From a virus: a stretch of 21,187 nucleotides of DNA. How positions within the stretch are numbered: the first letter of the stretch is position 1; the number at the start of each line of letters is the position of its first letter. The notes under the pieces were generated by a model, which was not told where the DNA came from, did not search any database, and worked only from the letters and a program-made list of their open reading frames with translations. Location: IMG/VR virus record IMGVR_UViG_3300022912_000053, positions 1 to 21,187 of that record. The stretch is one strand, 5' to 3'. The translations under genes were made by a program, and so were the position numbers. Shown here in pieces: positions 1-21,187 of the stretch.

Positions 1-1
1 G

Positions 2-163: not shown

Positions 164-207
164 TCAAAACGACTAGAACAAACGTTCCCAGTTTGATTGA
201 GTGAGAT

Positions 208-2304: not shown

Positions 2305-2319
2305 TTAGTTAGTTGACCA

Positions 2320-2344: not shown

Positions 2345-2399
2345 ATAAACCTTGAGTCACCTGACAGCAGAAATGCCGAGGTGAAAGGACAGAAAAAAA

Positions 2400-4569: not shown

Positions 4570-4571
4570 AG

Positions 4572-5608: not shown

Positions 5609-5618
5609 GAAGGGCGAT

Positions 5619-6558: not shown

Positions 6559-6579
6559 CAACTAATATAGGAGAAAACT

Positions 6580-7062: not shown

Positions 7063-7064
7063 AA

Positions 7065-7394: not shown

Positions 7395-7681
7395 TGGCCG
7401 CCGCCTATGCACATGCGGACGGCGGCCCGATAACAAACGAGTTAGAACTACTGAGCCACATCGATAGATTTGGTGTTTATGCTGTGTTGGGCAGGTCGCT
7501 TGGAGCTGGAGAGATACGCAAACTGAGGGCCGCCGAAAACGTGGTGAACTACTACGTAGAGCGTGAACGATGCGGTACGGAATGGGCAACCTGGGCAAAG
7601 AGCCATCGGCAGAAAGCTGCCGTGTTGGAGTATGCTCTATCCAAAGCAGTCGAATTAGGCTATATAAATGGCGAATCCTAG
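7388..7681 (+). CDS. Tail assembly chaperone, second frame (gpT-like part of a frameshift fusion)
   Basis: This frame is probably reached by a -1 shift from the gene before it, giving a fusion of about 205 residues. An independent start would be GTG 7394, which overlaps the previous stop (TAGTG) but has no clear ribosome binding site. The text (ELLSHIDRFGVYAVLGRSLG, then RKLRAAENVVNYYVERERCG and TEWATWAKSHRQKAAVLEYA) is helical and typical of the second chaperone frame, which recruits the tail tube. The end overlaps the tape-measure start by 14 bases. Confidence 0.7.
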   Translation, partial: RIVAAAYAHADGGPITNELELLSHIDRFGVYAVLGRSLGAGEIRKLRAAENVVNYYVERERCGTEWATWAKSHRQKAAVLEYALSKAVELGYINGES

Positions 7682-9722
7682 AATACAGATAATAATTGAC
7701 GCTCTAAACCTGGCTGGCGATGAGTTAAAAAATCTTGAGAAAGAACTCGCTGGCGTCCAGGAACAAGCGAAAAAGGCATCAAGCGCCGCCGATAAAATGC
7801 GTGACAGTTTTGATGCAGTCAAAATGGCAGGCGCGGGTATCATCGCGGGTGGATTTGCACTCAAAAAAGCCTTTGACTTTGCCAAAGAGGGGGCGCAGAT
7901 CGAACTGGTAGAGACACGCTTTGGCCGGTTAGCCGAAAGCATTGGCACAACTGGCAGCGCGTTGATGAATGATCTTGCTCCCGCAATGGGCGGAATGTTA
8001 TCAAATGCCGAAATGATGCAAGCAGCCACCGACCTGATGGCGTTGGGGTTGGCAAAAACACATGACGAAGCCGTGAGATTGGCGAGTGTTGCCGGTCAGT
8101 TGAATATGAATATGAATCAACTGGTGTTGACGCTGACCAACCAAACAACCATGCGTTTTGATGCGCTGGGCGTTGCGGTGGATGGATTCGACGAAAAAGT
8201 CAAGGCGCTTGAGGCTACGGGGATGAGCGCCAATGACGCATTCAACGAAGCGTTTTTGCAGCAGGCCGAGGAGCAGCTTGAAAGAATTGGTAGTGCGGTA
8301 GACTCTACGGTTGGAAAAATGCAGAGACTAGAAGCGCATGGTAAAAATGCCCTTGATGGTCTAAAGAGATCAGCCGCGGATTTGCTGGCCGCTGGTTTGT
8401 TACCGCTCATGGATGGTTTTGCAGAATTGGACAATGCTCAACGGGGGCTAGTAGACTACTACAGGGGCGCGGCACCAACTTATGAAAACTATATACGTTT
8501 ACAAGTTGCGCAGGCAATCGCGTCTGGAGATTTGGCAAACAATCAGCGTGACTATATGGTTGCGTTGCTATTATCTGGAAACGTAACCGAAGGCACTGCT
8601 AAACAGTTTGATGTCATGTCTCAGGCTACCTGGGAGCTAGCAAACGCGGCGGGCTATGCAGACAAGGCCATGTTAACCTTTGCATTATCGTCGTCATCTG
8701 TTGGCGCAGGCTATGCCGAGACAATGGAGGACATGGTTGAAATAACGGGTCGCATGGTAAAAGAGGCTGAATCGGCAGATCAGGCAATGCTGAACTATGC
8801 GGGATCGGCAATGGTCGTAAGTCAGGGGCTATCTCCGCTGACGGCGGCGCTGCGCGAGGTTGCCGGGGCTACCGCCGATGTGACCGGGAGTATGAGTAAT
8901 GATATGGCCGCGGCCGCTCAGGGAATGATCGACGAATTTGATTATATCCAGGCGGGCGGCGTTGAGTTGGCGCAGTTATTCGATGAAATCGGGCGCGCCG
9001 AGATAACCCCCAGGGTCAAGCAGGGATTGCTGGACGATGCTTTAATTGCCGCCGTAGACTTTGAAATTGCGCTGGGCAACATATCGCAGAACGAAGGGCT
9101 GCGCATGTTGCGCGAGGGGCTTGACCTGAGCTCATGGGATGAAGCTAACATCAAACTAGAGGAATTTCGCACTGAGGGCATGGACGGCCTGATAGCAAAG
9201 CTGGAAGAGGCTAATGAGGGCGCGCTTGGCCTAGCTAATGCAAAAATCGTGGAGCTTGCTACCGTTATGCAGGATAATGAGGACGGTATGATCGACTCAG
9301 TTGGCGTTGTATCGTCGTCGCTTGAAAGTACGCTAGTGCCACAATTGCGCGATGCCGCTGGTTATGTAAGCTCTATTATCAGCGGCCTATTGCGGTTGTC
9401 AGAGATGGGCGGGTTTGATTTGGGATTTAGTCTTGGCGGTGGAGGTGGCGGGGGCGGTGGAGCTACAAATCTATCTCTGACAACCCCAGGCGGGGCGACT
9501 ATGGGACATAGCGGGTTGGATTTTGTCGTACCGCCTGGGTATCCGAATGATTCATACGGCCCAATTTACGTGGAGAGTGGAGAGCATGTCAACGTAACGC
9601 CAGCCAATCAGATGGGTAACCGCGGTGGGTCAATGCAGGCGTTAATTAGCCCGTTTGATATGGCGCGCATGGCGACTGTGATTAGCCGGGCCGTGCGTGA
9701 CGGCATTCAGATGGGTGTGTAA
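7668..9722 (+). CDS. Tail tape measure protein
   Basis: The 684-residue product has the tape-measure layout. An N-terminal coiled coil (DELKNLEKELAGVQEQAKKA) is followed by a hydrophobic segment (MAGAGIIAGGFALKKAF, about 46-62). Then comes a TP901-like core with GRLAESIGTTGSALMNDL and NAEMMQAATDLMALGLAKTH, a long helical middle, and a run of eight glycines near residue 594. The final segment GPIYVESGEHVNVTPANQMG is typical of tape-measure C-termini. At the usual 1.5 angstrom per residue it would set a tail of about 100 nm, a rule-of-thumb estimate. No peptidase or lysozyme domain is visible. Confidence 0.88.
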   Translation: MANPRIQIIIDALNLAGDELKNLEKELAGVQEQAKKASSAADKMRDSFDAVKMAGAGIIAGGFALKKAFDFAKEGAQIELVETRFGRLAESIGTTGSALMNDLAPAMGGMLSNAEMMQAATDLMALGLAKTHDEAVRLASVAGQLNMNMNQLVLTLTNQTTMRFDALGVAVDGFDEKVKALEATGMSANDAFNEAFLQQAEEQLERIGSAVDSTVGKMQRLEAHGKNALDGLKRSAADLLAAGLLPLMDGFAELDNAQRGLVDYYRGAAPTYENYIRLQVAQAIASGDLANNQRDYMVALLLSGNVTEGTAKQFDVMSQATWELANAAGYADKAMLTFALSSSSVGAGYAETMEDMVEITGRMVKEAESADQAMLNYAGSAMVVSQGLSPLTAALREVAGATADVTGSMSNDMAAAAQGMIDEFDYIQAGGVELAQLFDEIGRAEITPRVKQGLLDDALIAAVDFEIALGNISQNEGLRMLREGLDLSSWDEANIKLEEFRTEGMDGLIAKLEEANEGALGLANAKIVELATVMQDNEDGMIDSVGVVSSSLESTLVPQLRDAAGYVSSIISGLLRLSEMGGFDLGFSLGGGGGGGGGATNLSLTTPGGATMGHSGLDFVVPPGYPNDSYGPIYVESGEHVNVTPANQMGNRGGSMQALISPFDMARMATVISRAVRDGIQMGV

Positions 9723-11317
9723 TGGTTGATTTATTCTCACCTGTCACGCAATTTGCCCTTGAAAACGGCAACGGGATACTGTTTGAGAACGGTACAGGAT
9801 TTTTGTACGAGTATCAGTACGCAGTGTATATCCATGCCTATATTGGGGGGGCGTGGGTTGACCTGACGTATGATACACGCTCGCCCGTTCCCGTTATGGT
9901 ATCCTACGGAATTAAGGGGTATTCGGTAAAAGAACGCGTTGCATCTACTGGCACGTTGACGTTTGCGCTAGATAACTCAATCCAAAATAGCAGCGGGTTG
10001 CTTGGGCATTATTCACCGGATCATACTAACGCGCGCAGCGGGTTCGATCTTGGCGTCGCTGTGCGTATCAACATTGTGGATAATAGCGGGGCTAATTTCA
10101 AAATGCGCGGCAAAATTATTGGGATTGAACCAGTGGCCGGATTATATCGCGAGAAATATACGCTTGTTACGGTTGCGGACTGGATGGAGGATGCCGCAAC
10201 CCACGCACTTGATGGCATTGCGGTACAGACTGACCAGAGGGGCGATGAGGTTGTATCTACGGTTGTGGGTAATATGCCAACTGCCCCGCAAAGCACAAAT
10301 TATGGCACGGGCATTGAAACACTCGCGTACTCTCTCCAGTCAGAAGATGACGGCAAAACTAAGCCGCTTTCTGTATTTCAGAAAATTACACAGTCCGATA
10401 TGTCATATATCTATCGTAAGGGAAACACAACAAATGGAGAAACGCTTGTATACGAAACACGCAGACAGCGCGAGAACAACCTAACGCCGGTAGCAACGCT
10501 TGACGATACAATGGTAGAGTTAAGCGCAGTGAGAAACCTGGACACATTGTATAAGCAAGTTAATGTGGTGAATCGTCCAGTCGAGATTGATGACTACGCA
10601 ACAACGGTTCTGGCAACACTACAAAAAGAATTAGAGATACCGCCGGGACAAACTAGAACATTTATTCTGAGATATAGAGACTCAACGGAGCGAGCGCAGA
10701 GGGTATCCGGTACTGATATAGTCAATCCGCTGATTGCTGACACCGACTATAAATTTTCGTCATTGCCAGACAGCGAGCTTGGCGACATGAATGCTGATCT
10801 TGATATAACTGTCGCACCTGGCGGTAATACAATTGAGATTACAGCGATAAATAATAGTGCACGGCGATCTGGATACCTCAATCCGTGTCAAGTGCGAGGG
10901 CGGGGGATTTATCAGTACGATGATGTTACGAGTACCGCCGTGCCCGCGACGGTTGTCGGGAGCCAGGTATTGCAATTTGCGCAACCATATCTGGATAACC
11001 CAGTTTCTGGCGAGCGTTTTGCCCGTTGGATTGCCACACATTGGGGGGCAGCCACAACACAGATTGCGACTTGTGAATTTGTTGCAAACTCTAGCGCAGC
11101 ACTGATGACCGCGGCGGCGACTGTTGAGATCGGCGATTGCGTCTCCATTACAGAGACTGTGACGGGCATTGATAAAAAGTTCCACGTTATGGGCATTGAG
11201 TTGACATTGGACTATGGTAAACTGCTATATTGTAGTTGGATATTGCAGCGGACAGACGAAACAGTGTATGCTAAGGTTGACGCTGCAACAGTAGACAGCG
11301 GAATCATAGGATTATAA
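9722..11317 (+). CDS. Tail tip / hub protein
   Basis: The 531-residue product follows the tape measure in a one-base overlap (TAATG). It is largely beta. The N-terminus has a short repeat (FALENGNGILFENGTGFLYE). Residues about 35-160 (IGGAWVDLTYD, SYGIKGYSVKERVASTGTLT, RGKIIGIEPVAGLYREKYTL) and the C-terminal FHVMGIELTLDYGKLLYCSW resemble tail hub and tail-associated proteins of the gp27/gpD type. It probably forms the tail tip ring that receives fibres and lets DNA out. A distal-tail protein is the main alternative. Confidence 0.6.
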   Translation: MVDLFSPVTQFALENGNGILFENGTGFLYEYQYAVYIHAYIGGAWVDLTYDTRSPVPVMVSYGIKGYSVKERVASTGTLTFALDNSIQNSSGLLGHYSPDHTNARSGFDLGVAVRINIVDNSGANFKMRGKIIGIEPVAGLYREKYTLVTVADWMEDAATHALDGIAVQTDQRGDEVVSTVVGNMPTAPQSTNYGTGIETLAYSLQSEDDGKTKPLSVFQKITQSDMSYIYRKGNTTNGETLVYETRRQRENNLTPVATLDDTMVELSAVRNLDTLYKQVNVVNRPVEIDDYATTVLATLQKELEIPPGQTRTFILRYRDSTERAQRVSGTDIVNPLIADTDYKFSSLPDSELGDMNADLDITVAPGGNTIEITAINNSARRSGYLNPCQVRGRGIYQYDDVTSTAVPATVVGSQVLQFAQPYLDNPVSGERFARWIATHWGAATTQIATCEFVANSSAALMTAAATVEIGDCVSITETVTGIDKKFHVMGIELTLDYGKLLYCSWILQRTDETVYAKVDAATVDSGIIGL

Positions 11318-11319
11318 AA

Positions 11320-12630
11320 ATGAGTTGGACAACACCACACAATTGGGCTACGGGCGAAACGATAACCGAAACACTACTTGATGAGATTAGTGATAACTTA
11401 ACCTATCTCAAGGGGCGCATCGACACGTCTTTGACAAATAAATCCGGTAGCAATTTGCTAACTGGCGCAGTTGTTATATTTGACGTTGATAATAATAATG
11501 CGTTTACAACCACGACGGCCACGGGCGACCGCCGCGTTATGGGGGTGCTAACTGAGGACGTAGACAACGACGCGTCCGGAAATGTGCTAATTGGAGGAGT
11601 TGGTAGTATCCAGATTGCCGGAACGGTAAACCGAATGGAAGCGCTAGAAACATCCACGACAGCCGGAAAGGCCAGCGGCACAGGGGGGTATACAATGGCG
11701 CCGGGCGCGATTGGCTTCGCGTTGCAAAGCGGAACGGACACAACGATTACGGCGCTAATAGCCGTTCGCCATGTGGTTAGCTCGCAACCTGCCAACGGCT
11801 ATGTATCCGGTGGGTATGGCGTGGCAAATATTCAGGATACAGACGAATATGACCCTGATACCTGGACAAGCAAATCCGCAATGCCTTCTCCAGCTCGCGA
11901 CGAGCATACTTTTCGCGGCGGCGGCACTTCTCCACTTTTCGCCATTGGTGGCGATAATTCCGGAGCCTTGTCGGATAATGACGAATACGACCCAGATACC
12001 TGGACGAGCAGAACCGCCGCGCTTGCGGCGGCGGCGGATTTGCACGGCGGGCACAGCGAGCATTCCGGCGGGCAACTGGCGTTTGACCGGGGAAATGGGA
12101 ATCTTGACGAATACAGCGTTAGCGGTGATAGCTGGTCAAATAAGCTCGGCAGTGCCAGGGCTAATGTTGCCCGCGGTGCTGGGCTAGCCGATGGCAATAT
12201 GTATGAGTTTGGCGGGGACGTGGGCGGTTCATACGCCATTGATGACGTCGATGAATATGATTTTTCCGGTACTTTTACGTCAAAATCTCTTATGCCGGGA
12301 AATAGAGAGTGGTTGCACGGCGGGGCAGTCGATAACACGACTATAATAGCACATGGCGGCGAACGTAGCGGTGTAGGCACGTATGATACAACTTTTTTGT
12401 ACGACCCAGATACCTGGACATCGGGAACTGCCAGCGGAACGGCACTTAATCGTCACGCTATGTTTGATATTGGCTCGCTGATGTATATTTGTTTTGGTAA
12501 TACAGCAGACGTCTCAGCCCCAGTGGCGACTGATGCCACAAAAGAATATGATGTTTCGGGCGATTCTTTTACTGCAAAATCAGCCGGGCCGTCGCCTGCT
12601 CGCTATGATTTGGCCGGAGGCAGTATATAA
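11320..12630 (+). CDS. Tail fibre / receptor-binding protein with a kelch-type beta-propeller
   Basis: The 436-residue product has a virion-attachment-like N-terminus (MSWTTPHNWATGETITETLL, then residues to about 150 resembling phage fibre heads). From about residue 150 there are six imperfect repeats of 40-47 residues. Repeat starts read DEYDPDTWTSKSAMPSPARD, DEYDPDTWTSRTAALAAAA, DEYSVSGDSWSNK, DEYDFSGTFTSKS, FLYDPDTWTSGTA and KEYDVSGDSFTAKSAGPSPA. Each is followed by a glycine-rich strand such as FAIGGD, YEFGGD or IAHGGE. This is the kelch pattern, and the first and last half-repeats could close a six-bladed propeller. Host-glycan or receptor binding is likely, given its place after the tail hub, but the ligand is unknown. 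Confidence 0.75.
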   Translation: MSWTTPHNWATGETITETLLDEISDNLTYLKGRIDTSLTNKSGSNLLTGAVVIFDVDNNNAFTTTTATGDRRVMGVLTEDVDNDASGNVLIGGVGSIQIAGTVNRMEALETSTTAGKASGTGGYTMAPGAIGFALQSGTDTTITALIAVRHVVSSQPANGYVSGGYGVANIQDTDEYDPDTWTSKSAMPSPARDEHTFRGGGTSPLFAIGGDNSGALSDNDEYDPDTWTSRTAALAAAADLHGGHSEHSGGQLAFDRGNGNLDEYSVSGDSWSNKLGSARANVARGAGLADGNMYEFGGDVGGSYAIDDVDEYDFSGTFTSKSLMPGNREWLHGGAVDNTTIIAHGGERSGVGTYDTTFLYDPDTWTSGTASGTALNRHAMFDIGSLMYICFGNTADVSAPVATDATKEYDVSGDSFTAKSAGPSPARYDLAGGSI

Positions 12631-12908
12631 TGGCTACCAAGTATTTCACATATCGACCGCTTTATCTTGGCCCCAGGCTTGGAACAGTGCCGCTCGACTA
12701 TCATTTAAAAAAAGCGTACGGGACACTCAAATTTGATTTCGAATTAGCGATTGCAAACGGTACACCTTCTGGAGATGGCCGCGAGTTGGGGAGCATCACA
12801 GCAGATACGGAGATAATTATAGACGCTGTTTTACAGGGATTGCCGGTGGCGTGGGAAGAAGAAACCAAAGCGAACGCGCAAGAGAAGGTGAAGCGGTGGA
12901 AAAAATGA
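12630..12908 (+). CDS. Small phage protein of unknown function
   Basis: The 92-residue product starts in a one-base overlap with the fibre stop (TAATG). The first half is beta-like (MATKYFTYRPLYLGPRLGTV) and the end is helical and charged (EEETKANAQEKVKRWKK). No motif is recognised. It may be a fibre chaperone or a small tail component. The stop overlaps the next start by four bases (ATGA). Confidence 0.6.
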   Translation: MATKYFTYRPLYLGPRLGTVPLDYHLKKAYGTLKFDFELAIANGTPSGDGRELGSITADTEIIIDAVLQGLPVAWEEETKANAQEKVKRWKK

Positions 12909-13594
12909 CAACAGCAGATCAGTTCATTGAGTTTTTGTCTGATTATCAGGGCGGGATGTCACAGTTTCAAGATGATTACCTTGTTACCGTGCGCGCTGGA
13001 CTTACTAATTACGGTATGTATAAGCAGGCGTTGCGTGAAATGATGACGCGTCTCCGGTCTATCGCGCAGGCATACTATACGCATGAGATACTAGACATTG
13101 AGATAGCGGAGCTTATGGAGCAGGCAGAGATGGCACAGGGGTATGAGTTAGCGCGTATCGTGGCAGAACTAAAGCTAAAGCGCGTTAATTCTGTGTTCGA
13201 GCAAAAGCGCGTGAGCGAGTTAGAGGCCGAATTGTCACGCTTTTGGCAACAAGCTCACCATTTTAAGGCATTGGTTGGCGAGATAACGCCAGAACGCCGC
13301 AGGGAACTAGAAAACGAATACTGGGACGCTTTACTTACTGAGAGATTTGTTTTATCCGGCGGTGTACCGAATGACAAGCTGTTGCGCGATGTGGGTTCAA
13401 TGCCGCCAACTTTGCGGCGTGAAATGGTGCTGAAATACACACCAGAAAATTATTCAGTGCTTAGGCAACAGTACCTTGAGCGGGAACTTCCCGCGCTAGA
13501 CAATATGCCGCTTATTGGCGAGCGCATGGACAAAGAGAAGATAGAGAAAATATTATCAAGCGGCGCGTTCGAACTAGAGGCACAAAATGGCTGA
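12905..13594 (+). CDS. Helical phage protein of unknown function
   Basis: I place the start at ATG 12905, which overlaps the previous stop (ATGA) and has GGTGG upstream. An upstream start at 12851 lacks a ribosome binding site and would add residues overlapping the previous gene. The 229-residue product is almost wholly helical and charged (AQAYYTHEILDIEIAELMEQ; KQKR and QKRVSELEAELSRFWQQAHH segments). It has no membrane segment and no known motif. In the fibre cluster it may be a structural spacer or assembly factor; this is unsupported beyond context. Confidence 0.65.
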   Translation: MTTADQFIEFLSDYQGGMSQFQDDYLVTVRAGLTNYGMYKQALREMMTRLRSIAQAYYTHEILDIEIAELMEQAEMAQGYELARIVAELKLKRVNSVFEQKRVSELEAELSRFWQQAHHFKALVGEITPERRRELENEYWDALLTERFVLSGGVPNDKLLRDVGSMPPTLRREMVLKYTPENYSVLRQQYLERELPALDNMPLIGERMDKEKIEKILSSGAFELEAQNG

Positions 13595-14276
13595 TAAATC
13601 ACTATCGCAGGGTATTACCGACGGCGACGTTACCGCAAATACTGATCCGCAATCGGGGGATTATTTGTATTTGCTGGATGACCCAGCCGGTACACCGGCC
13701 AGCAACTACATTACTGTTGGCAATCTCGTATCGTCTGCAACCGTTTTGGCGTCTGGCGCTGCGATGTCGGGAGGGGCGTTCCATGATGGGTTTTCGGATT
13801 TTGTTGCAGACGAGCACTCGCCAAGTGCGTCTGCTGGCGAAACCACAACCGGGACGGCGACAAATAGACACGTAACACCAGACGCATTAGCGGGTAGTGA
13901 TTACGGTAAACGGGTAATCGAGATCATGCACACTCAATCAGATACAGCCGTATCTACTGGCGACGGGACTGTTGGCATAGGGATTACGGCGGAACTGAAT
14001 GGCTGGAATATCGTTGATTATTACGGGTTTGTTCATACGCAGGGTGTAACTGGAACGACAGATATACAATTGCGGCGACGGCGATCTGGCTCAGATGTAG
14101 ATGTAATGAGTACAAAAGCCACCATTGGCGCTGAATACTACGCCAATGATGGCGTAATTAATACATCAAACGACGACCTTGCAACAGGCGACCAGTTATA
14201 TGTTGACGTTGATGCCGTACACAGTGGCACAGCGCCCAACGGATTAACTGTTGCAATCGTTGTGCAATTACCATAG
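13587..14276 (+). CDS. Tail fibre-like structural protein
   Basis: The 229-residue product overlaps the preceding gene by eight bases. The first 60 residues (DYLYLLDDPAGTPASNYITV, then GNLVSS) and the segment TGTATNRHVTPDALAGSDYG are typical of phage tail fibres and fibre-like adhesins. The second half is beta-rich (GWNIVDYYGFVHTQGVTGTT) with a helical-wheel-free Asp/Thr/Val composition suggesting a beta-sandwich tip. A role as a second receptor-binding protein is inferred. Confidence 0.65.
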   Translation: MADKSLSQGITDGDVTANTDPQSGDYLYLLDDPAGTPASNYITVGNLVSSATVLASGAAMSGGAFHDGFSDFVADEHSPSASAGETTTGTATNRHVTPDALAGSDYGKRVIEIMHTQSDTAVSTGDGTVGIGITAELNGWNIVDYYGFVHTQGVTGTTDIQLRRRRSGSDVDVMSTKATIGAEYYANDGVINTSNDDLATGDQLYVDVDAVHSGTAPNGLTVAIVVQLP

Positions 14277-14289
14277 GATTTTATAACAC

Positions 14290-15621
14290 ATGAGTAGCTG
14301 GACGGATGACTTTTTGGCAAAAAGCGATGATTCGAGACGTCAAATTGTGCGGCGGGCGCGGCATGGTTTGCATTTCGATTTGGGTCGCGGGCGTGTGAGG
14401 GCGCATTTTACCGGCGCCCCTTGTCATTATCGCGGTTCCGATGGTCTGTGGAAACCTATATCGACCAGATTGCAATTAGATAGAAGCACAGGTAAATACG
14501 GCGCTCCCGGAATTGCAACACGTTTTGATTTGGACGGCACGATTATAGCGATGCGGCATAGCCAGCGAAACACAAGGATTGGGATATATAGCCCACGGAA
14601 AGAAGAATTTACGCCGCTGATTGTATTACCGGGCGGGGTTGTGGCGAATAATACGATGATTCGCGAAACACCGTTATTTAGCGAGCACACTTTTCTAAAA
14701 GAAAATGGCATAAAGCAAAATATCGTTGTTAATTCTGTTCCGGCGGGATTTGGAGAGGCTATATCCGGCGATATTTTATGTGTTGAGACGTTGATTGATT
14801 ATGATCTTCCCGATGGTCTCGTTTCAGCATTGCCGCGCTTTGCAGAGTATATGTTTCCGGAGCCATACAGCTATGACGATAGCGGGCGTCGTCTAAAGAC
14901 ATCACGTTATGCAAAAAAAGTGGGCGCATCTCAGTATATTTATACTGGTGTATTGGTTATTGATATTGAGTTGGCGAAATTCCCACTAACCATTGACCCT
15001 GATTTTAGCGGCGATACGGCAGATGGGTATATCGAGGGAATAAGTTCTAGCTGGTCTACGGCAAGAGGCACGGCTAGCTCGCATGGTACATCCGATGCGG
15101 CGAACAGCGTAGGAGCATATTCGTACTCGTCTATATTTCATGTTCTTCGTCATTTCTATAAATTTGATACATCATCTATTCCAGACGGAGATACAATTAC
15201 CCAGGTCAACCTAAAATTGACGTGCCAATCGGTACAAGTAACAGGTAATAATTTGGATGTGCAGATTGTGAAACAAGATTGGTCAAGTCAAGACCCAATA
15301 GCGTCTGGTAATAGAGAAGCGGCGTATGACAATTGTCTGTCTGGGACATTAGATGATGCAATTTGGCAGAACACATCTGGATTAGTAGCCGGAACGCAGT
15401 ATGCAAGCGGCAATCTCAATACGGGGTGGGTTAGCAAAACGGGGAATACCTATTACAGTTTGAGATCAAGTCTTGATTATGACAATGATCCCCCGCCCGC
15501 ATCACCAAACACGCTCGAATTTACGACGATACGGTCATCGGATCATGCTACGCCGGGGGATCGCCCAATACTTACGGTTGAGTATGGCACTGGCTTTGTT
15601 CAGCAAGTTGTGATGTTTTAG
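14290..15621 (+). CDS. Tail protein with a C-terminal DNRLRE-like beta-sandwich
   Basis: The 443-residue product is the last clear gene of the late block. Residues about 1-240 are beta-rich and not recognised. From about residue 245, the text IFHVLRHFYKFDTSSIPDGD, TITQVNLKLTC and RPILTVEYG follows the DNRLRE / carbohydrate-binding-like beta-sandwich pattern found in surface and tail proteins. In that family a Phe-Asp-hydrophobic-Ser-Ile-Pro motif opens the fold and L-x-V-x-Y closes it. It is probably a tail or virion surface protein that binds polysaccharide. No hydrolase motif is visible. Confidence 0.6.
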   Translation: MSSWTDDFLAKSDDSRRQIVRRARHGLHFDLGRGRVRAHFTGAPCHYRGSDGLWKPISTRLQLDRSTGKYGAPGIATRFDLDGTIIAMRHSQRNTRIGIYSPRKEEFTPLIVLPGGVVANNTMIRETPLFSEHTFLKENGIKQNIVVNSVPAGFGEAISGDILCVETLIDYDLPDGLVSALPRFAEYMFPEPYSYDDSGRRLKTSRYAKKVGASQYIYTGVLVIDIELAKFPLTIDPDFSGDTADGYIEGISSSWSTARGTASSHGTSDAANSVGAYSYSSIFHVLRHFYKFDTSSIPDGDTITQVNLKLTCQSVQVTGNNLDVQIVKQDWSSQDPIASGNREAAYDNCLSGTLDDAIWQNTSGLVAGTQYASGNLNTGWVSKTGNTYYSLRSSLDYDNDPPPASPNTLEFTTIRSSDHATPGDRPILTVEYGTGFVQQVVMF

Positions 15622-15664
15622 GATAAATCCTGCGGAACATATACCGCATAGGAGTTTTTAGAAC

Positions 15665-15757
15665 GTGGCGATAGTTTTGGGGGGTAGGGATTTTACCTAC
15701 GGACATTTGAGCATCGTTGAGAGGCTTCCCAGGGCCTTAGCCTGCCCCCGAATTTAG
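15665..15757 (+). pseudogene. Possible truncated start of a phage gene at the array junction
   Basis: A GTG at 15665 with GGAG 10 bases upstream begins a 30-residue frame (MAIVLGGRDFTYGHLSIVER, then LPRALACPRI) in step with the late operon and 43 bases after its last stop. The start region looks genuine but the frame ends at once at the edge of the opposite-strand block. It may be the remnant of a late gene cut when the right-hand block arrived, or merely a chance frame. Confidence 0.25.
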
Positions 15758-15761
15758 TTTG

Positions 15762-15962
15762 CTATTCAGCGGCGATGGTGCAGGCGTCACAATAATAGTC
15801 GCCAGCCGTGGTGAGATGTAGATACTCACCACATTCGCAAACGGGCGAATCGTCATCTTGCATACAGGCCACACAATAAAAATCACCCATAAAATCAAAG
15901 GCCCCCAAGACTCCGCACCCGTCGCATCTTAGATTTTTCTCAAACGGAACATTTCTTCTCAT
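15762..15962 (-). CDS. Double zinc-ribbon small protein
   Basis: The 66-residue product has a strong ribosome binding site (AAAAGGAGAACCA) before its ATG. It carries two four-cysteine units: Cys13/16 with Cys30/33, and Cys42/44 with Cys58/61. Both have aromatic residues before the second pair (DFYC, DYYC). These are very likely two treble-clef or zinc-ribbon knuckles. It is the last gene of the - strand block and converges on the phage late genes. No good attC core follows it. The function is unknown; small zinc-ribbon proteins often bind nucleic acid or protein partners. Confidence 0.75.
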   Translation of the reverse strand: MRRNVPFEKNLRCDGCGVLGAFDFMGDFYCVACMQDDDSPVCECGEYLHLTTAGDYYCDACTIAAE

Positions 15963-15980
15963 TGGTTCTCCTTTTATGTG

Positions 15981-16127
15981 TGGGGTGTGCAGGTGTCGAT
16001 CCTGCTACCATTCCTGTTTGTGAGTTCAGCGTAGTTTTTGTTTACCCGACCGGCAGGTATACGCCTTGCCCGCTGGCGCTTGAATGGCTATCGCTCCATC
16101 GGTTTCTGCTCCATCGCAGACACCCCA
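15981..16127. repeat. Long imperfect palindrome between two - strand genes
   Basis: TGGGGTGT at 15981-15988 is the exact inverse of ACACCCCA at 16120-16127. Further partial pairing lies inside (TCGAT near 15996 with ATCG near 16113; GCCGGCAGG near 16049 with CCTTGCCCGC near 16065). It fills most of the 170-base gap between the last two - strand genes. It lacks GTTRRRY and RYYYAAC at its ends, so it is not a standard attC, but its size and nested arms are similar. Confidence 0.4.
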
Positions 16128-16136
16128 TGATATTAA

Positions 16137-16388
16137 TTAGAACCGCTCTAAATATTCATCTACACCAAAAACTCTATCGCGCGCACGGTCAGGCACCACG
16201 TTGGGTTGGGCGGCTTTCTTGTACTCTCTTTGAACAACTTTTCTGAAATCTTTATACTCAAACTCAACATCAATATGAAGTATATTCTCCATGATTGCCA
16301 ATGTTAGAGTTTCGGCTTCGAATACAGTCAGATTGTTCTTGACGCAAAACTCTGACGCTTGCTTTGCTGTATACGTAAGTTGACCCAT
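16137..16388 (-). CDS. Cassette gene: small protein of unknown function
   Basis: I place the start at ATG 16388, which has GGAGAAAA directly upstream and lies 23 bases after an attC core. A longer frame from 16460 would be encoded by the attC site itself. The 83-residue product (MGQLTYTAKQASEFCVKNNL, then TVFEAETLTLAIMENILHID) is mixed alpha/beta and unrecognised. Its C-terminal third begins AAQPNVVPDRARDR at a possible R'' core (ACCCAAC, bases 16200-16206 on the - strand), so the tail may be encoded by a worn attC site. No good closing GTTRRRY core follows. Confidence 0.6.
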   Translation of the reverse strand: MGQLTYTAKQASEFCVKNNLTVFEAETLTLAIMENILHIDVEFEYKDFRKVVQREYKKAAQPNVVPDRARDRVFGVDEYLERF

Positions 16389-16410
16389 TTTTCTCCAATG
16401 GACGGTAGCC

Positions 16411-16538
16411 GCCCAACGTGCAGGTTCAGCGGCGGCGCGGTTTTGCGCCGGTGATTTCATCGGAATAAATATAATTATCTGTGGACGATTGCCCGTAATG
16501 CGTGGCTGTAGCGTCGTCCGCTGTAACGGTGGTTAGGC
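16411..16538 (-). other. Integron attC site
   Basis: On the - strand the site runs from R'' GCCTAAC (16532-16538) to R' GTTGGGC (16411-16417), both perfect matches to RYYYAAC and GTTRRRY. The inner arms GTTaCAGCGG and CCGCTGaAC pair. The length is 128 bases. The left end sits 23 bases before the start of the next gene. The upstream gene reads through the site to a stop at 16426. Confidence 0.85.
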
Positions 16539-16668
16539 GGTTTTCGTTGCATGGAACTTTCTCAACACCGAACAAATTATGCTCACCGTTTTCTAACGGC
16601 ACACCGTCTAAGCAGTACATACACAAGGGCGATTTTCTTAGTAATGCTATTTGATTTACGCTATACAT
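16426..16668 (-). CDS. Cassette gene: small protein with an attC-encoded tail
   Basis: I place the start at ATG 16668, preceded by AGGAGAGAAA. The 80-residue product (MYSVNQIALLRKSPLCMYCL...) has one CxxC pair and no recognised fold. From residue 44 (RLTTVTADDATATHYGQS...) the protein is encoded by the attC site that follows, ending in PRRR. A longer frame opens at ATG 16737, right after the previous attC core, and adds MTTNKRPKKWWGLHCRRFCL. That extra part matches WWGLHCR of the gene at 20092-20343 and looks like the remnant of a lost related cassette. Confidence 0.6.
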   Translation of the reverse strand: MYSVNQIALLRKSPLCMYCLDGVPLENGEHNLFGVEKVPCNENRLTTVTADDATATHYGQSSTDNYIYSDEITGAKPRRR

Positions 16669-16688
16669 TTTCTCTCCTAAACAAAAAC

Positions 16689-16712
16689 GCCGACAATGCA
16701 GTCCCCACCATT
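16689..16712 (-). repeat. 24-base exact repeat, copy 1 (WWGLHCR fossil)
   Basis: These 24 bases are identical to 20205-20228, where they encode WWGLHCR inside an intact zinc-ribbon gene. Here they sit between an attC core and the ribosome binding site of another gene, in a frame that would read KKWWGLHCRR. This suggests a fragment of a related cassette gene left behind by deletion. Confidence 0.75.
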
Positions 16713-16744
16713 TTTTGGGGCGTTTATTTGTGGTCATATTAGAA

Positions 16745-16822
16745 ACCTAACGATTGCTTCAAATGCCCGGCGGTGCTGACTGGATACACTGAGAGCGAGT
16801 TATTACCGCCGCTCGTTGTCAA
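16745..16822 (-). other. Integron attC site (short form)
   Basis: R' is GTTAGGT (16745-16751). R'' is a weak TGACAAC (16816-16822) that overlaps the TGA stop of the peptidase gene. The arms GCGGCGGT and ACCGCC pair within a 78-base site. Unlike most sites here, the upstream gene stops at R'' and does not read through. Confidence 0.75.
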
Positions 16823-17430
16823 GGCAACAATGGTAATGGGTCAACGTAATTTCTGTTCAGGCGCACAGTAACGTGAAGGTGTGGGCCAGTAGTATTTCCG
16901 GTATTGCCGGATAGCCCTATGCGTTGGCCTCGGGTCACATTTTCGCCACTTAAGACAAGCACCTGACTAAGATGGGCATATTTGGATTCATATCCATTAT
17001 CGTGTTTGATGGTTATATGCTTGCCGTAGTTGAATCTATGATCTTCTGTATGTTGTGACTTCGAGCTAGTCACAATTCCATCTGCGATTGCGTAGATGTC
17101 CGTGCCGATTGCTACGCCAATATCAAGACCTTCATGCCCGATCTGCGGCGTTCCGTCAGCATTTCGCATTCCGAATTTGCGGTAAATGGCTTCATTTTCA
17201 CCGAATTTCTGTGTCACCCATTTGGATAAGGTGGGCCACGCGAAAATGCCGCCTGTTGGCGCTACGGCATCCTCATTGGCTTCCCAGGTGAAGACCTTGT
17301 CAGGGAATAGGTTCGGCAATGCTGCGTGCAGAGCATCTTGGATAGCTCTCACGCCATCCCTGTTAATTCCAGAAACGTATATATTGTTGCTTGCGTGGTC
17401 GTGCATCATTTCCAAACTTAGTGTTGCCAT
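16819..17430 (-). CDS. M23-family zinc endopeptidase (likely lysin)
   Basis: I place the start at ATG 17430, preceded by AAGGAG; a longer frame from 17478 lacks this support. The 203-residue product carries the LytM/lysostaphin-type domain at about residues 95-200. Zinc ligands are His99 and Asp103 (HEGLD) and His186. Catalytic histidines are His152 (KYAHLS) and His184 (GPHLHV). GTDIYAIADGIV and RGQRIGLSGNTGNTTGPHLH are classic family text. It should cut peptide cross-links in peptidoglycan. There is no signal peptide or membrane segment, so if it is the phage endolysin it needs a holin, and none is visible here. The N-terminal 90 residues are not recognised. It occupies its own cassette. Confidence 0.85.
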   Translation of the reverse strand: MATLSLEMMHDHASNNIYVSGINRDGVRAIQDALHAALPNLFPDKVFTWEANEDAVAPTGGIFAWPTLSKWVTQKFGENEAIYRKFGMRNADGTPQIGHEGLDIGVAIGTDIYAIADGIVTSSKSQHTEDHRFNYGKHITIKHDNGYESKYAHLSQVLVLSGENVTRGQRIGLSGNTGNTTGPHLHVTVRLNRNYVDPLPLLP

Positions 17431-17445
17431 TTCTCGTATTCTCCT

Positions 17446-17508
17446 TTTTACGACTTGCTTCACGGGGCGGCGTTTCAATCGTTGCCATCGCTGCCCATGA
17501 TGTTAGTA
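17446..17508 (-). other. Degenerate attC-like site upstream of the peptidase gene
   Basis: On the - strand TACTAAC (17502-17508) is followed by arms GGGCaGCG and CGCcGCCC and by GTGAAGCAAGTCGTAAA near 17446-17462. That last part resembles the TGAAGCAATCGTTAGGT end of the next site but lacks GTT. It looks like a worn attC that may no longer recombine. Confidence 0.3.
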
Positions 17509-17539
17509 AATAATTCCCCACAAATCCACTGCATGTTAA

Positions 17540-17828
17540 GTTAGAAAAGCGGGCCGGGTTCTCACCGACACGGAGCATATTCAACAATTTATGCGCCTAT
17601 TCTCAATTGCGCAAGTACATTATTTGCTACTCGTAGGGATGAAATACAGGGATCATCGCCTTCTATGTGGCTCACCCGGAATTTCATAACTAAGCCCTAG
17701 CCGCTGTACCGCCGCTTTTCTATTTTCTGGCTTCCCAGATCGCACTCATCGGTTATACAGGGACATTACCGAATGCTACGGCCAGATTTTGTTATAAAGG
17801 TTCTACGGGGCTAGTCCCGCTTTCTAAC
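17540..17828. repeat. 289-base segment bounded by inverted GTTAGAA(A)AGCGGG repeats
   Basis: GTTAGAAAAGCGGG at 17540-17553 faces CCCGCTTTCTAAC at 17816-17828. The ends match the cores of attC sites (GTTAGAA...TTCTAAC), so the segment has the form of a single small cassette body. A miniature inverted-repeat element is the alternative; no target duplication is seen. Apart from the 32-residue frame listed separately, it holds nothing recognisable. Confidence 0.5.
17589..17687 (-). CDS. Possible 32-residue peptide gene in a small cassette
   Basis: ATG 17687 has AGGG 9 bases upstream and opens a frame reading MKFRVSHIEGDDPCISSLRV, then ANNVLAQLRIGA and TAA. It is the only sensible frame in the 400 bases between the two neighbouring genes. 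The composition is protein-like but the length is too short to be sure. It has no membrane segment. Confidence 0.35.
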   Translation of the reverse strand: MKFRVSHIEGDDPCISSLRVANNVLAQLRIGA

Positions 17829-17948
17829 GTTTGCATCAGCGGCTTGGCGGCGTATAGAAAACCGACCTGGCACAACTGATTTTATGATATGGATCGGGCT
17901 GATTGCAATCGGGGCAGATAGCCAAGTCCGCTGTATGTGTGGTTAGGT
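17822..17948 (-). other. Integron attC site
   Basis: R'' is ACCTAAC (17942-17948) and R' is GTTAGAA (17822-17828, one base off the consensus). The arms AGCGGacTTGGC and GCCAAGCCGCT pair well. The length is 127 bases. The upstream gene reads through it and ends at 17836. Confidence 0.8.
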
Positions 17949-18117
17949 TGCCGCATGAACAACCCAATTCGCCGTTTGATGTGGGATCGGCGGCGATAAT
18001 TTCATCGGCACGAAGCAACAACTGATACAACTCCGAGCGCGCATCCTGAAATTCATCGAAGCTGTGTTCTAGACTTTGCATAATGCGAAACATTTCTGTA
18101 AATTTATCGGCTAACAT
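17836..18117 (-). CDS. Cassette gene: small helical protein with a zinc-binding attC-encoded tail
   Basis: I place the start at ATG 18117, with GGAG five bases upstream. It lies inside the end of the preceding gene, which it overlaps by 14 bases, so the two are probably coupled and share one cassette. The 93-residue product has a long helix (FRIMQSLEHSFDEFQDARSE), then CSCG. From NLTTHTADLAICPDCNQPDP onward the text is encoded by the attC site. The CxC and CPDC pairs could form a zinc site, half of which would then come from attC. The function is unknown. Confidence 0.6.
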   Translation of the reverse strand: MLADKFTEMFRIMQSLEHSFDEFQDARSELYQLLLRADEIIAADPTSNGELGCSCGNLTTHTADLAICPDCNQPDPYHKISCARSVFYTPPSR

Positions 18118-18334
18118 CTTCACTCCATTCTGGAACATCATCATACGGCATTCCTTCGCCGCACTGGCAACAACATGCCCAGCCTTCATATTCATCAGGT
18201 TCATAATATGTGCCTGGGTATCGCTTCCACTTGACTTCTACCTGCGGGTGCTTGCAATCGCTACCACAAGCACCGCTTCCCATACGATGCGGAAATTTAT
18301 AGGCTGGGCATTGGCATGTTTTTGTTTGTGTCAT
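18104..18334 (-). CDS. Cassette gene: cysteine-rich zinc-binding phage-type protein
   Basis: I place the start at ATG 18334, with AGGT upstream. A TTG at 18355 in frame is possible, but it lies within the attC core. The 76-residue product begins CQCPAYKFPHRMGSGACGSD, a pattern (CxCPAYxFPHRxxxGxC) I associate with small phage and plasmid proteins. It has further cysteines at 27, 54-56 and 58. The cysteine layout implies metal binding. The function is unknown. It is the first of two overlapping genes in this cassette. Confidence 0.65.
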   Translation of the reverse strand: MTQTKTCQCPAYKFPHRMGSGACGSDCKHPQVEVKWKRYPGTYYEPDEYEGWACCCQCGEGMPYDDVPEWSEDVSR

Positions 18335-18354
18335 TTTAGACCTACGTTTAGGCA

Positions 18355-18447
18355 AACTAACGGTTTAGGCCACCCGCTGTTTGCCCATATTGCCGTCGCT
18401 GGCTAAAACGCGAGCGGGCAAACAGTCGGGTGCGCCTGTTGTTAGTG
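18355..18447 (-). other. Integron attC site
   Basis: R'' CACTAAC (18441-18447) and R' GTTAGTT (18355-18361) pair over ACTAAC / GTTAGT. Inside them GCACCCG pairs with CGGGTgGC and GTTTGCCC pairs exactly with GGGCAAAC. The 93-base hairpin is among the clearest in the window. The upstream gene reads through it. Confidence 0.88.
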
Positions 18448-19099
18448 ATGCCGTGTGCGCAAGTTTGAATTCAACAACCCATACCCACGGGTTAACGTCC
18501 CATCCGTAGCCACGCTGTCCGTTGATGTTGTCCCAAAGCTCTGCAAATTCGACGCGTGGCATATACCGATCGTTTTTCATAAGCCCTTCTGCAAGCGCAT
18601 TTTCTGTGCTGATTTCCTGCACACGCTCAACGCGCACATCCACAATATCGAGAGTGATCCGGCTCGCCCAGCGTGGCATAAAAATAGATGGACGCCAACT
18701 ATCACCATGATTACCGCGTGCATCCATCCATTTGTACGATGCTTCCTGCGTGTTCTCGATTTCGATAAACGCATTATCGGCGCGATAGCGAATACCATCA
18801 AGGCCGGGATTGTGACTATCGTCGCCGAGTTCTTCAGCCCGCCAAGTTTCGCGCACCCAAATAGTATCAGTCGTACCATCCGAATATACGGAGCCATACG
18901 GCGAACCCCTATCGCCATAAACGTCGTGGAATAAATGGGATTGCATAAGGCAATCAGATACATAAAATAAATCGCCATGCCACCATCCGCCGCTCATCGC
19001 CATCGGTTGTGGCTTTATTACCCGGCGGGTTTGGGATTTGCGGCCTTCCAGGATTGCATTTACCATTTCGCCGTTAAATAGGATAGGTTTTTCAGCCAT
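18365..19099 (-). CDS. Cassette gene: ASCH-domain phage protein
   Basis: I place the start at ATG 19099; the frame from 19138 begins inside attC. The 244-residue product opens MAEKPILFNGEMVNAILEGR followed by KSQTRRVIKPQP, the usual start of the ASCH/PUA-like proteins common in phages. It continues with IWVRETWRAEE, PSIFMPRWASRITLDIVDVR, the PF-like segment VERVQEISTENALAEGL, and ends its normal domain at NPWVWVVEFK. The fold suggests RNA or modified-nucleotide binding; the reaction is unknown. After VEFK the extra tail LAHTASLTTGAPDCLPARVL... comes from the attC site, which such proteins do not normally carry. Confidence 0.82.
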   Translation of the reverse strand: MAEKPILFNGEMVNAILEGRKSQTRRVIKPQPMAMSGGWWHGDLFYVSDCLMQSHLFHDVYGDRGSPYGSVYSDGTTDTIWVRETWRAEELGDDSHNPGLDGIRYRADNAFIEIENTQEASYKWMDARGNHGDSWRPSIFMPRWASRITLDIVDVRVERVQEISTENALAEGLMKNDRYMPRVEFAELWDNINGQRGYGWDVNPWVWVVEFKLAHTASLTTGAPDCLPARVLASDGNMGKQRVA

Positions 19100-19120
19100 A
19101 AAGTTACTCTCTTTCAGGCA

Positions 19121-19244
19121 CACTAACGGTTTATTCATTTGCCGGGCGGGTTTGCAAAAATACCCGGCATATTGAATTGACTGGCCGCAAAGCGCCGCGG
19201 CCTATCCGGGCGACTAGCCCGGTCTAATGCAATTTTGGTTAGGT
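19121..19244 (-). other. Integron attC site
   Basis: R'' ACCTAAC (19238-19244) and R' GTTAGTG (19121-19127) bound a 124-base site with arms TTgCATtagaCCGGGC and GCCCGGcaaATGAA. It contains a further small hairpin, CCGGGCtagtcGCCCGG. Related TAGCCCGGTC text occurs in the sites at 20352-20474 and 20955-21079, so these sites form one family. The upstream gene reads through to 19135. Confidence 0.85.
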
Positions 19245-20040
19245 GCGGATGCGATAAATCACCAACCCCGCACGAAACACACGCAGATTCAGTATCGAGT
19301 TCGCATAAATCAATGCCCAGACTGGCTTCGTATCGCTCTCGCAGTTCCGTCAATGGCAGCGGCGATACATTGCCGCCCGACTGATCCCTAACAATGGCGT
19401 AATTTTTGCGCACTGGATGATCTCTCATTGCGGTTTCCCAGTTTTCAATTTCTGCGTATCGTTCAGGATAATTTATGAGAGTGCGCAACCAATCGCCCTG
19501 CCCCTGCTTGACGCAGACGCCACCACAATTAGCGTGAGTGTAGCCTAGCGCGTACATTCTAGGTGGCTCAATGCACCAATCGTAGCGTACAACATCCGCA
19601 TATTTACGGTATTCGATGGGCTTCCAGAGTAATGGATAGTCAACATCCCAACCGCGGGCATTGTAGTTTTTTGTAGTAGCTTCGCAGCGGTGAATTTCTG
19701 AGAAATCATAGCCAATGTGAATTGTTACCGGATCGCTGATTGTTTCCAGGTATGCAACAAACGGTTCAATTTTCAATCGGAACGTGCAAGGTGCAATTTT
19801 TTGATTTGCTATGATTGACTGATCCGCAAAAACCTGATACGGCGTGCGACCTTCTGCTAGGGTTGTTATTGGCATATTCCAACGGCGGCGGCAATCATCC
19901 ATGAAGCGGTAATTGTCTCCGTCTTCGATTTTTGTATCCATGAATACGATTTCAACCGCCGATTTTCCATAGCGATTGATAACGCGCTCAACCGTGAGCG
20001 CAGATGATAAGCCGGTTGAAAAGCTAATGATGTGTTTCAA
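19135..20040 (-). CDS. Cassette gene: PAPS-reductase-like PP-loop protein
   Basis: I favour TTG 20040 as the start (MKHIISFSTGLSS); its ribosome binding site TTAGGTG is the attC core itself. GTG 20049, inside the core, is the alternative. The 301-residue product has the PP-loop SFSTGLSSAL, a strand IVFMDTKIEDGDNYRFM, the segment APCTFRLKIEPF, and the motif YTHANCGGVCVKQGQGDWLR. These mark the phage branch of the PAPS reductase / adenine nucleotide alpha-hydrolase superfamily. A cysteine cluster (CELDTESACVSCGVG) follows. It may adenylate or sulfur-modify a substrate; true PAPS reduction is unproven. From HLTKIALDRASRPDRPRR onward the protein is attC-encoded. Confidence 0.8.
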   Translation of the reverse strand: MKHIISFSTGLSSALTVERVINRYGKSAVEIVFMDTKIEDGDNYRFMDDCRRRWNMPITTLAEGRTPYQVFADQSIIANQKIAPCTFRLKIEPFVAYLETISDPVTIHIGYDFSEIHRCEATTKNYNARGWDVDYPLLWKPIEYRKYADVVRYDWCIEPPRMYALGYTHANCGGVCVKQGQGDWLRTLINYPERYAEIENWETAMRDHPVRKNYAIVRDQSGGNVSPLPLTELRERYEASLGIDLCELDTESACVSCGVGDLSHPHLTKIALDRASRPDRPRRFAASQFNMPGIFANPPGK

Positions 20041-20047
20041 AATAAGC

Positions 20048-20138
20048 ACCTAACGATGGCGTAACCCGCTTGTGGCATAGCGGATCACTGATTATTTTGC
20101 GCCCGATTGCCACAAGTCGGGTTTACGTTTGGTTAGGT
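20048..20138 (-). other. Integron attC site
   Basis: R'' ACCTAAC (20132-20138) and R' GTTAGGT (20048-20054) are perfect inverse copies. Each is eight bases from its inner arm, AACCCGaCTTGTGGCA and TGCCACAAGcGGGTT, which pair with a single unpaired base. This 91-base site is a textbook attC. The R' continues GTTAGGTG into the translation start of the next gene. Confidence 0.92.
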
Positions 20139-20343
20139 GCGCCGTTTCTTGCACAGTGACCGGGCGCTGGCCGCAATTTGGGCATAGATTTTGGTAACCA
20201 TCATGCCGACAATGCAGTCCCCACCATTGATCGCCACAAAAAAGACATTTTCTCAGAAAATGCACGGACTCTTCCCCAAAATCGCCGTCGCTTTTGGGAT
20301 ATGAATCAAATTCACATTCGCATATTTCTATGTAGTCGTTCAT
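20092..20343 (-). CDS. Cassette gene: zinc-ribbon protein
   Basis: The 83-residue product starts at ATG 20343; the only ribosome binding site is AGGTG from the attC core 8 bases upstream. Cys33/Cys36 (CLFC) and Cys54/Cys57 (CPNC) frame GDQWWGLHCRHDGYQNL, a zinc-ribbon layout. The end HLTKRKPDLWQSGAK is attC-encoded. A 24-base piece of this gene (20205-20228) recurs at 16689-16712. The function is unknown. Confidence 0.72.
   Translation of the reverse strand: MNDYIEICECEFDSYPKSDGDFGEESVHFLRKCLFCGDQWWGLHCRHDGYQNLCPNCGQRPVTVQETAHLTKRKPDLWQSGAK
20205..20228 (-). repeat. 24-base exact repeat, copy 2
   Basis: These bases encode WWGLHCR inside the intact zinc-ribbon gene and are identical to 16689-16712, about 3.5 kb away. 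Flanking sequence diverges at once on both sides. Confidence 0.75.
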
Positions 20344-20351
20344 AATTTAGC

Positions 20352-20474
20352 ACCTAACGTTTTAGTAACCGGCTTGGCGGGTTAGCTCAGAGCCATTGCC
20401 GGGAGATATGATAATTTGCTAGACTTCATCGTTTTGCGCCGCGGTAGCCCGGTCGGGTTCACTTTGGGTTAGGT
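20352..20474 (-). other. Integron attC site
   Basis: R'' ACCTAAC (20468-20474) and R' GTTAGGT (20352-20358) are perfect inverse copies bounding 123 bases. The inner arms AACCcG and CCGGTT pair imperfectly, and GACCGGGCTA recalls the neighbouring sites. R' continues as GTTAGGTG just upstream of the next start codon. The upstream gene reads through to 20419. Confidence 0.87.
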
Positions 20475-20667
20475 TTCGTGACGGCTTATCGTTGCTAACC
20501 ATATCGCTGCTTTGATACAATTTCATCCAGCACGTATCACCATTGCACGTTCTCGAAACTTCATCGAGATAGAATGCAACCCAACCACGACGGCGGAGAT
20601 ATTTTGCCATTAGCCTATGATGAAACCTTAGTGCGTTGTGCATTGTTACTGTAATAAATTCTGACAT
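20419..20667 (-). CDS. Cassette gene: orphan small protein
   Basis: The 82-residue product starts at ATG 20667 with a strong GAAGGAAGG ribosome binding site. It is basic at its N-terminus (RFHHRLMAKYLRRRGWVAFY), has two cysteines (RTCNGDTCW) and ends in the attC-encoded tail NLTQSEPDRATAAQNDEV. No family is recognised. Its layout is typical of cassette orphans. Confidence 0.65.
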   Translation of the reverse strand: MSEFITVTMHNALRFHHRLMAKYLRRRGWVAFYLDEVSRTCNGDTCWMKLYQSSDMVSNDKPSRNLTQSEPDRATAAQNDEV

Positions 20668-20685
20668 ATTAACCTTCCTTCAGAA

Positions 20686-20807
20686 ACCTAAGGTTTGCTT
20701 CAAGCGCCGACGTCTTTTACTTCTTTACCATTCACAAAAGTGCGATCCTTAGCTCCGGGCGCGGCGTAGTCCACGCCAAAGGCGGTCGCTTGCAAGTTTT
20801 GTTGGGC
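20686..20807 (-). other. Integron attC site with a mutated core
   Basis: R'' is probably GCCCAAC (20801-20807) and R' is CTTAGGT (20686-20692), where the invariant first G of GTTRRRY has become C. The arms GCAAGCG and CGCTTGaagc are 7-8 bases from the cores. The length is 122 bases. A second possible R'' (TCCTAAC) lies at 20818-20824. Because cleavage occurs next to the lost G, the site may be inactive. Confidence 0.7.
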
Positions 20808-20924
20808 GGCTTTCTTTGTTAGGAAGTCGGTAAAATCTTGCAATGCCCATCGAACACCAGCCGTCAACGATGACGGATTTTCTACTTCTAAAATAAACTC
20901 GGATAGCAATTCTTCATAATCCAT
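20700..20924 (-). CDS. Cassette gene: orphan small protein
   Basis: I place the start at ATG 20924, which has AAGGAAGG upstream; the frame from 20960 starts in the attC core. The 74-residue product has an acidic helical start (MDYEELLSEFILEVENPSSL, then TAGVRWALQDFTDFL). From about KKAAQQNLQATAFGVDYAAP the text overlaps the attC site. The KKAAQ-N segment and its 16 coding bases are shared with the cassette gene at 16137-16388. The function is unknown. Confidence 0.6.
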   Translation of the reverse strand: MDYEELLSEFILEVENPSSLTAGVRWALQDFTDFLTKKAAQQNLQATAFGVDYAAPGAKDRTFVNGKEVKDVGA

Positions 20925-20954
20925 TTTGTTGCCTTCCTTTTCTTGGACGTGTCC

Positions 20955-21079
20955 GCCCAACGTTTAGCATAACCAGCCGGGCGATTACACCCTGAGCTTG
21001 TTAGCCTACAAACTACTTGAATAATTCACCCTGCTTACCCTCGGGCGATAGCCCGGTCTGAGTTGATGCGGGGTTAGGT
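20955..21079 (-). other. Integron attC site
   Basis: R'' ACCTAAC (21073-21079) and R' GTTGGGC (20955-20961) bound 125 bases with arms AACtCAgaCCGGGC and GCCCGGcTGgTT. It contains the short hairpin CGGGCtatcGCCCG seen in related form in other sites here. The upstream truncated gene ends inside it. Confidence 0.88.
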
Positions 21080-21187
21080 TGCTCTATGCCATCAAATAAT
21101 CCGGCTTGCCCCATCGCTCGCATTTTCCAGGCTTCTGGAATTGGGCGAGTGTAATTACATTCGGGCCAGTTGGGACATCCAAGAAAT
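21013..21187 (-). CDS. C-terminal end of a protein with a topoisomerase-type zinc finger (5' truncated)
   Basis: An open frame of 57 residues enters from the right edge and ends at TAG 21013-21015. It begins FLGCPNWPECNYTRPIPEAW, which matches the C4 zinc-finger repeat of bacterial topoisomerase I and related nucleases (FxGCxxxPxCxYT). Only the second half of the finger is visible. The end (EQPNPASTQTGLSPEGKQGE, then LFK) is encoded by the attC site, but in a different frame from the other cassettes. The full protein lies outside the window. Confidence 0.65.
   Translation of the reverse strand, partial: FLGCPNWPECNYTRPIPEAWKMRAMGQAGLFDGIEQPNPASTQTGLSPEGKQGELFK

Follow-up and report, generated by a model that had tools for sequence, protein, structure and literature searches.

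We have found an array of integron-type gene cassettes that abuts a phage late operon. The window (the whole stretch of DNA that was analysed) is the entire linear IMG/VR record IMGVR_UViG_3300022912_000053, 21,187 bases long. The late operon, on the plus strand (208–15621), takes up the left three quarters of it; from 16.4 kb to the right end the DNA has the organisation of integron gene cassettes, all lying on the minus strand. We consider it probable that this array is a CALIN (a cluster of attC sites without an integrase) carried by a phage, whose host probably belongs to Anaerolineae. An earlier note on this DNA, made from the letters alone, had proposed that an array of integron-type cassettes, with cargo of phage type, lies next to a phage late operon, and the analysis described below supports that proposal.

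The phage late operon

The late operon starts with the gene for the major capsid protein (208–2304; PF05065, phrog_10), followed by genes for a sulfotransferase (3712–4569; PF00685) and a head-tail connector (4572–5159; phrog_442), all on the plus strand. On the same strand lie the genes for the presumed tape measure (7668–9722) and, up to 15621, for the presumed tail proteins; these roles were assigned from length and order. Positions 1–9005 are 100% identical to a contig (L002) from another metagenome, in which terminase and portal genes, named by inspection and order, lie upstream of the shared part. Since this DNA was obtained from two metagenomes, we conclude that the phage part comes from a real virus, probably a dsDNA tailed phage of Anaerolineae (Chloroflexota).

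Two features of the operon deserve mention in their own right. The interval between the capsid and connector genes (2400–4569), compared with L004 and L061, holds variable extra genes; its sulfotransferase-like gene is also present in L061, and other relatives carry different genes there. In the tail region a Kelch-repeat protein is encoded at 11320–12630, perhaps a beta-propeller receptor-binding part.

Identification of attC sites

The scan for attC sites scored both the cores and the pairing of the inner arms, tolerated one to three core mismatches and accepted scores of 12 or higher. It yielded seven sites in 15700–21187, spanning 4.7 kb (16.4–21.1 kb); at least two close attC sites define a CALIN. 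Four sites (16411–16538, 20048–20138, 20352–20474 and 20955–21079) have both cores perfect (RYYYAAC ... GTTRRRY) and three more (17822–17948, 18355–18447 and 19121–19244) appear once one to three core mismatches are allowed. Below the scan threshold, two or three degenerate sites are seen as repeats near 16747, 17521–17546 and 20682; the eight sites with such cores counted in the earlier note were thus about right. At the same threshold no site was found in 60 dinucleotide shuffles of the array region, nor in the phage part of the window (1–15700). In other viral DNA, about 614 kb in all, 16 scattered matches turned up, versus seven in the 5.5 kb of the array.

The paired inner arms noticed earlier were confirmed with one exception. 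The L″ arm scores 13.8 on average with its own L′ and 6.5 with the L′ of other sites, except at 20352–20474; six of the seven sites pair best with themselves, leaving at least two bases unpaired. Two unpaired bases are located on the L″ side of the pairings at near-constant spacing, and extrahelical bases on this side are a known feature of attC sites. Site 20352–20474 pairs poorly and looks like a hybrid: its two arms match those of neighbouring sites better than they match one another. The sites also agree with the gene limits: six of the nine genes end inside an attC site and six of the nine start no more than 35 nt from one, a match reached in none of 100,000 random placements.

The earlier note had suggested a search with covariance models, and this check succeeded for one site. 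A model built from 15 bacterial attC arms recovered 16411–16538 (29.5 bits, E-value 4.6e-6) but missed the remaining sites of the window, and with filters off it returned none of the sites; the misses are likely due to long loops and to the narrow training of this small model. Because it missed most sites, we relied on the structure-aware scan with shuffles. An Rfam search of the window produced no match.

The attC sites of the array were turned into a search pattern, which retrieved 30 stretches in bacterial and archaeal genomes. Several of these stretches hold arrays of attC sites, and in six of the eight attC-array genomes tested an integron integrase scored above the curated cut-off. Since the pattern retrieves integrase-bearing genomes with attC arrays, the sites of the window are of the type used by real integrons. 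In viral contigs a pattern of the array's attC type gave only a chance match inside a gene (L019).

Cassettes and their cargo

All genes and sites of the array are on the minus strand. The gene nearest to the tail operon (15762–15962) encodes a 66-aa zinc-finger protein and is not accompanied by a clear attC; a cassette array among the short minus-strand genes, as described earlier, therefore holds from about 16.4 kb onwards and does not extend to this first gene. The next open reading frame (16137–16388, 83 aa from an internal ATG) is cassette-like: its start lies 23 nt away from the attC 16411–16538, with no attC seen at its 3′ end. A 103-aa cassette gene of unknown function (16426–16737) ends inside the attC 16411–16538, the site backed by cores, scan, pairing and covariance model alike. 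A degenerate attC with approximate limits (16746–16840; repeat family D1/D5) is followed by the gene for an M23 peptidase (16819–17430, 203 aa from an internal ATG; PF01551, E-value 2.8e-29) and by a second degenerate attC, also of approximate limits (17449–17546; repeat family D2 at 17521–17546).

Inside the attC 17822–17948 ends a cassette of two overlapping genes (17836–18334), one encoding 122 aa (17836–18204) and the other assigned to phrog_5016 (18104–18334). This site and the next two, 18355–18447 and 19121–19244, are identified by scan and arm pairing; the latter two are followed by the phrog_874 gene (18365–19099; E-value 1.8e-61) and by the gene for a 304-aa PP-loop/PAPS-reductase-like protein (19135–20049; phrog_424, E-value 1e-37), respectively. 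Next to the attC 20048–20138, where arm pairing adds to cores and scan, is a gene for a cysteine-rich 83-aa protein (20092–20343), a zinc ribbon by motif with no family match above the cut-off. The mismatched site 20352–20474, supported by cores and scan, contains the end of an 82-aa gene of unknown function (20419–20667). There follow a third degenerate attC (20688–20808, limits approximate; repeat family D5), a cassette gene of 74 aa from an internal ATG with no good phage match (20700–20924) and the attC 20955–21079 (cores, scan and arm pairing). The start of a further cassette gene (21080–21187) has an open frame that runs off the end of the record, which thus ends inside the array.

No promoter or terminator signals clearly above chance were found in the array. 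By eye, the genes at 16137–16388 and 20700–20924 look related, and two cassettes have in common a 33-nt stretch, 88% identical and encoding WWGLHCR (16680–16712 and 20196–20228).

Judged by family assignment, the cargo is partly of phage type (phrog_874, phrog_424 and phrog_5016). The ASCH domain named in the earlier note is not supported by Pfam; the protein encoded at 18365–19099 belongs to phrog_874, of unknown function. The phrog_874 gene has relatives in 339 phage records by tblastn and the phrog_424 PP-loop gene in 86; among 298 Anaerolineae genomes, each of the two has a homologue (E-value 1e-10 or lower) in just one. At 80 other viral loci the phrog_874 genes lie outside any attC array, and the PP-loop gene has no close relative in the viral contigs. 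The PP-loop protein matches SspD weakly (E-value 1.1e-11), and a search for defence systems gave nothing besides this match. The M23 gene matches PHROGs of phage peptidases, endolysins and tape measures. M23 peptidases are common in phages as a lysin or tail enzyme, and equally common in bacteria; to call this gene the lysin of the phage is no more than conjecture. PHROG matches at E-value < 1e-5 were obtained for four of ten array proteins and for one of ten proteins in a small bacterial-cassette control, an excess that is only suggestive.

The junction and related phages

Between the last tail gene, which ends at 15621, and the first minus-strand gene at 15762 lie about 140 bp, contrary to the earlier reading that the cassettes meet the tail genes with no spacer. 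No integron integrase was seen among the open reading frames examined in the record, which stops within the array, and the intI and attI of a complete integron are absent from the available sequence. The attC block begins near 16.4 kb, leaving the gene at 15762–15962 and the left edge of the next one without a recognisable attC, and no attC repeat is found at the junction itself. Over 32 aa, the product of the gene at 15762 is 56% identical to a protein whose gene lies upstream of that for the capsid in L065–L067, distant capsid relatives from the same phage family. The G+C content is continuous across the junction (about 0.47–0.50 on both sides), and the tetranucleotide and base-composition distances between array and phage part (0.25–0.28) compare with 0.16–0.23 within the phage part and 0.32–0.57 to the other loci compared. 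The junction is present in one assembly only, L002 stopping before it, and IMG/VR contains no exact match to the window's right end. A strong long hairpin without attC cores (15960–16140, about −51 kcal/mol) is located between the first and second minus-strand genes.

Comparison with related phage contigs, from which the earlier note had hoped to read cassette gain and loss, showed the array in none of the capsid relatives L058–L067, with one isolated low attC match in L059. The 44-kb relative L061 has no attC; behind its tail genes come further plus-strand genes that resemble a lysis region. Relatives of the last tail gene (L006–L018) contain no credible attC, the scan matches in L012 having been rejected for their positions inside genes, and no integron integrase was found in 13 related viral records.

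The presumed host class

The phage family points to Anaerolineae (Chloroflexota) as the probable host. We sampled 298 genomes from this class, to which the reference genome L031/G001 belongs: 27 have a homologue of the capsid protein (the best at 781 bits) and 73, about a quarter, encode an integron integrase that passes the curated cut-off. One integrase-bearing genome (G228) contains a cassette attC that matches window positions 16408–16450 with 88% identity over 42 nt. An array matching that of the window was found in none of the 298 genomes, and about 204 kb adjoining capsid homologues at 18 Anaerolineae loci contain no attC. In another Anaerolineae genome (G138) the late genes of a related prophage run straight into apparent bacterial genes.

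Alternative explanations

That the array is situated inside the phage genome, rather than in host DNA adjoining a prophage, is likely; the right flank is missing from the record, and this gives the competing reading its room. In that reading the phage would end near 15.7–16.1 kb, beside or within a host chromosomal integron of which the array would be the distal part. In G138 the prophage seems to stop directly behind its tail genes, so the tail operon here could likewise end at a prophage edge; against such an edge speak the continuous base composition and, on the array side of the junction, the homologue of a gene from the phage family. Integron integrases are frequent in the class, no relative of the phage shows the array and a Vibrio prophage bounded by attC sites has been described (PMC9892861), but the cargo includes families that are widespread among phages and hardly occur in Anaerolineae genomes, and the DNA near the capsid homologues of the class is free of attC. 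The cargo, the composition, the phage-family gene, the attC-free host loci and the failure to find a matching host array together lead us to prefer a phage-borne CALIN; a prophage next to a host integron is less likely, and we regard it as rather improbable.

Much less probable is an assembly chimera joining a phage contig to the cassette array of another organism. Cassette repeats can mislead assemblers, and the junction is backed by a single contig, the identical L002 covering 1–9005 only; still, the attC repeat is absent from the point of joining, the first minus-strand gene has phage relatives and base and tetranucleotide composition are close on both sides. Finally, the repeats might be ordinary terminators or intergenic repeats, which the resemblance that attC sites can have to weak terminators and the degeneracy of three sites would make conceivable. 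The core boxes, the two extrahelical bases, the pairing of arms with their own partners, the positions at gene limits and the 88% match to a cassette attC from an integrase-bearing Anaerolineae genome largely refute this idea, and we give it almost no weight.

Possible mechanism and significance

Given that no integrase is seen, recombination of a phage-borne CALIN would have to occur in trans, most simply by an integron integrase of the host. The phage may have acquired its cassettes through such an enzyme, which could insert cassettes into the phage and remove them during infection, with attC sites in their folded single-stranded form as its substrate. The array would then serve the phage as an exchangeable stock of accessory genes (small zinc proteins, the PP-loop enzyme and the M23 peptidase) and might pass cassettes between phages and host integrons. 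Transcription of the cassettes would be directed towards the late operon, presumably from a phage promoter situated upstream, past the right end of the record.

More speculative, and in our opinion doubtful, is the suggestion that the accessory region of the phage is an integron-style cassette bank, with phage genes turned into cassettes and exchanged between phages via host integrases. Were this true, phages would have in the integrons of Anaerolineae a machinery for exchanging genes. Cassette arrays in phages offer a route of gene exchange with bacterial integrons that has been little explored, and this one is long, occurs in a phage family that can be tied to an integron-rich bacterial class and contains genes that seem to stem from phages and not from bacteria. 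With it, one can test whether phages employ the integron integrases of their hosts to reshuffle accessory genes of their own.

Comparison with known systems

Storage of cassettes by a phage, called unusual in the earlier note, is indeed rare, but less so than was stated there: 17 CALINs and three complete integrons were reported in phage genomes in 2023 (Qi et al., PMC9892861). The array resembles the CALINs of Tetrasphaera phage TJE1, Polaribacter phage P12002L and Pseudoalteromonas phage PH101 (PMC9892861) in having attC-flanked cassettes, with no integrase gene seen in the available sequence; as in TJE1 and PH101, the cassettes point in one direction. It is longer, with seven clear and about three degenerate sites compared with three sites in TJE1, and its cargo (PP-loop, phrog_874 and M23) differs from that of the published phage CALINs, which includes DNA methyltransferases (PMC9892861). 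The phage itself is from a different, uncultured family, probably of Anaerolineae. Six attC sites from virulent phages have been assayed with IntI1, which recombined five of them (Qi et al. 2023, PMC9892861).

With the chromosomal integrons of Anaerolineae and other environmental bacteria the array shares the attC architecture, the 88% identical 42-nt stretch and single-gene cassettes; unlike them, it adjoins a phage late operon, its cargo is partly of phage families and its record has neither integrase nor attI. Phage genes also adjoin a cassette array in the Vibrio anguillarum prophage Va_90-11-286_p16 (PMC9892861). That prophage is bounded by attC sites, and its array, integrase included, represents a subset of the chromosomal integron of its host; for the array of the window, in contrast, no such host array was found in the 298 Anaerolineae genomes. 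We found no published description of a CALIN in a phage of Chloroflexota, within an incomplete coverage of the literature. The array is thus a long and clear new example of a known but rare system, notable for its size, the probable phylum of its host and its phage-type cargo.
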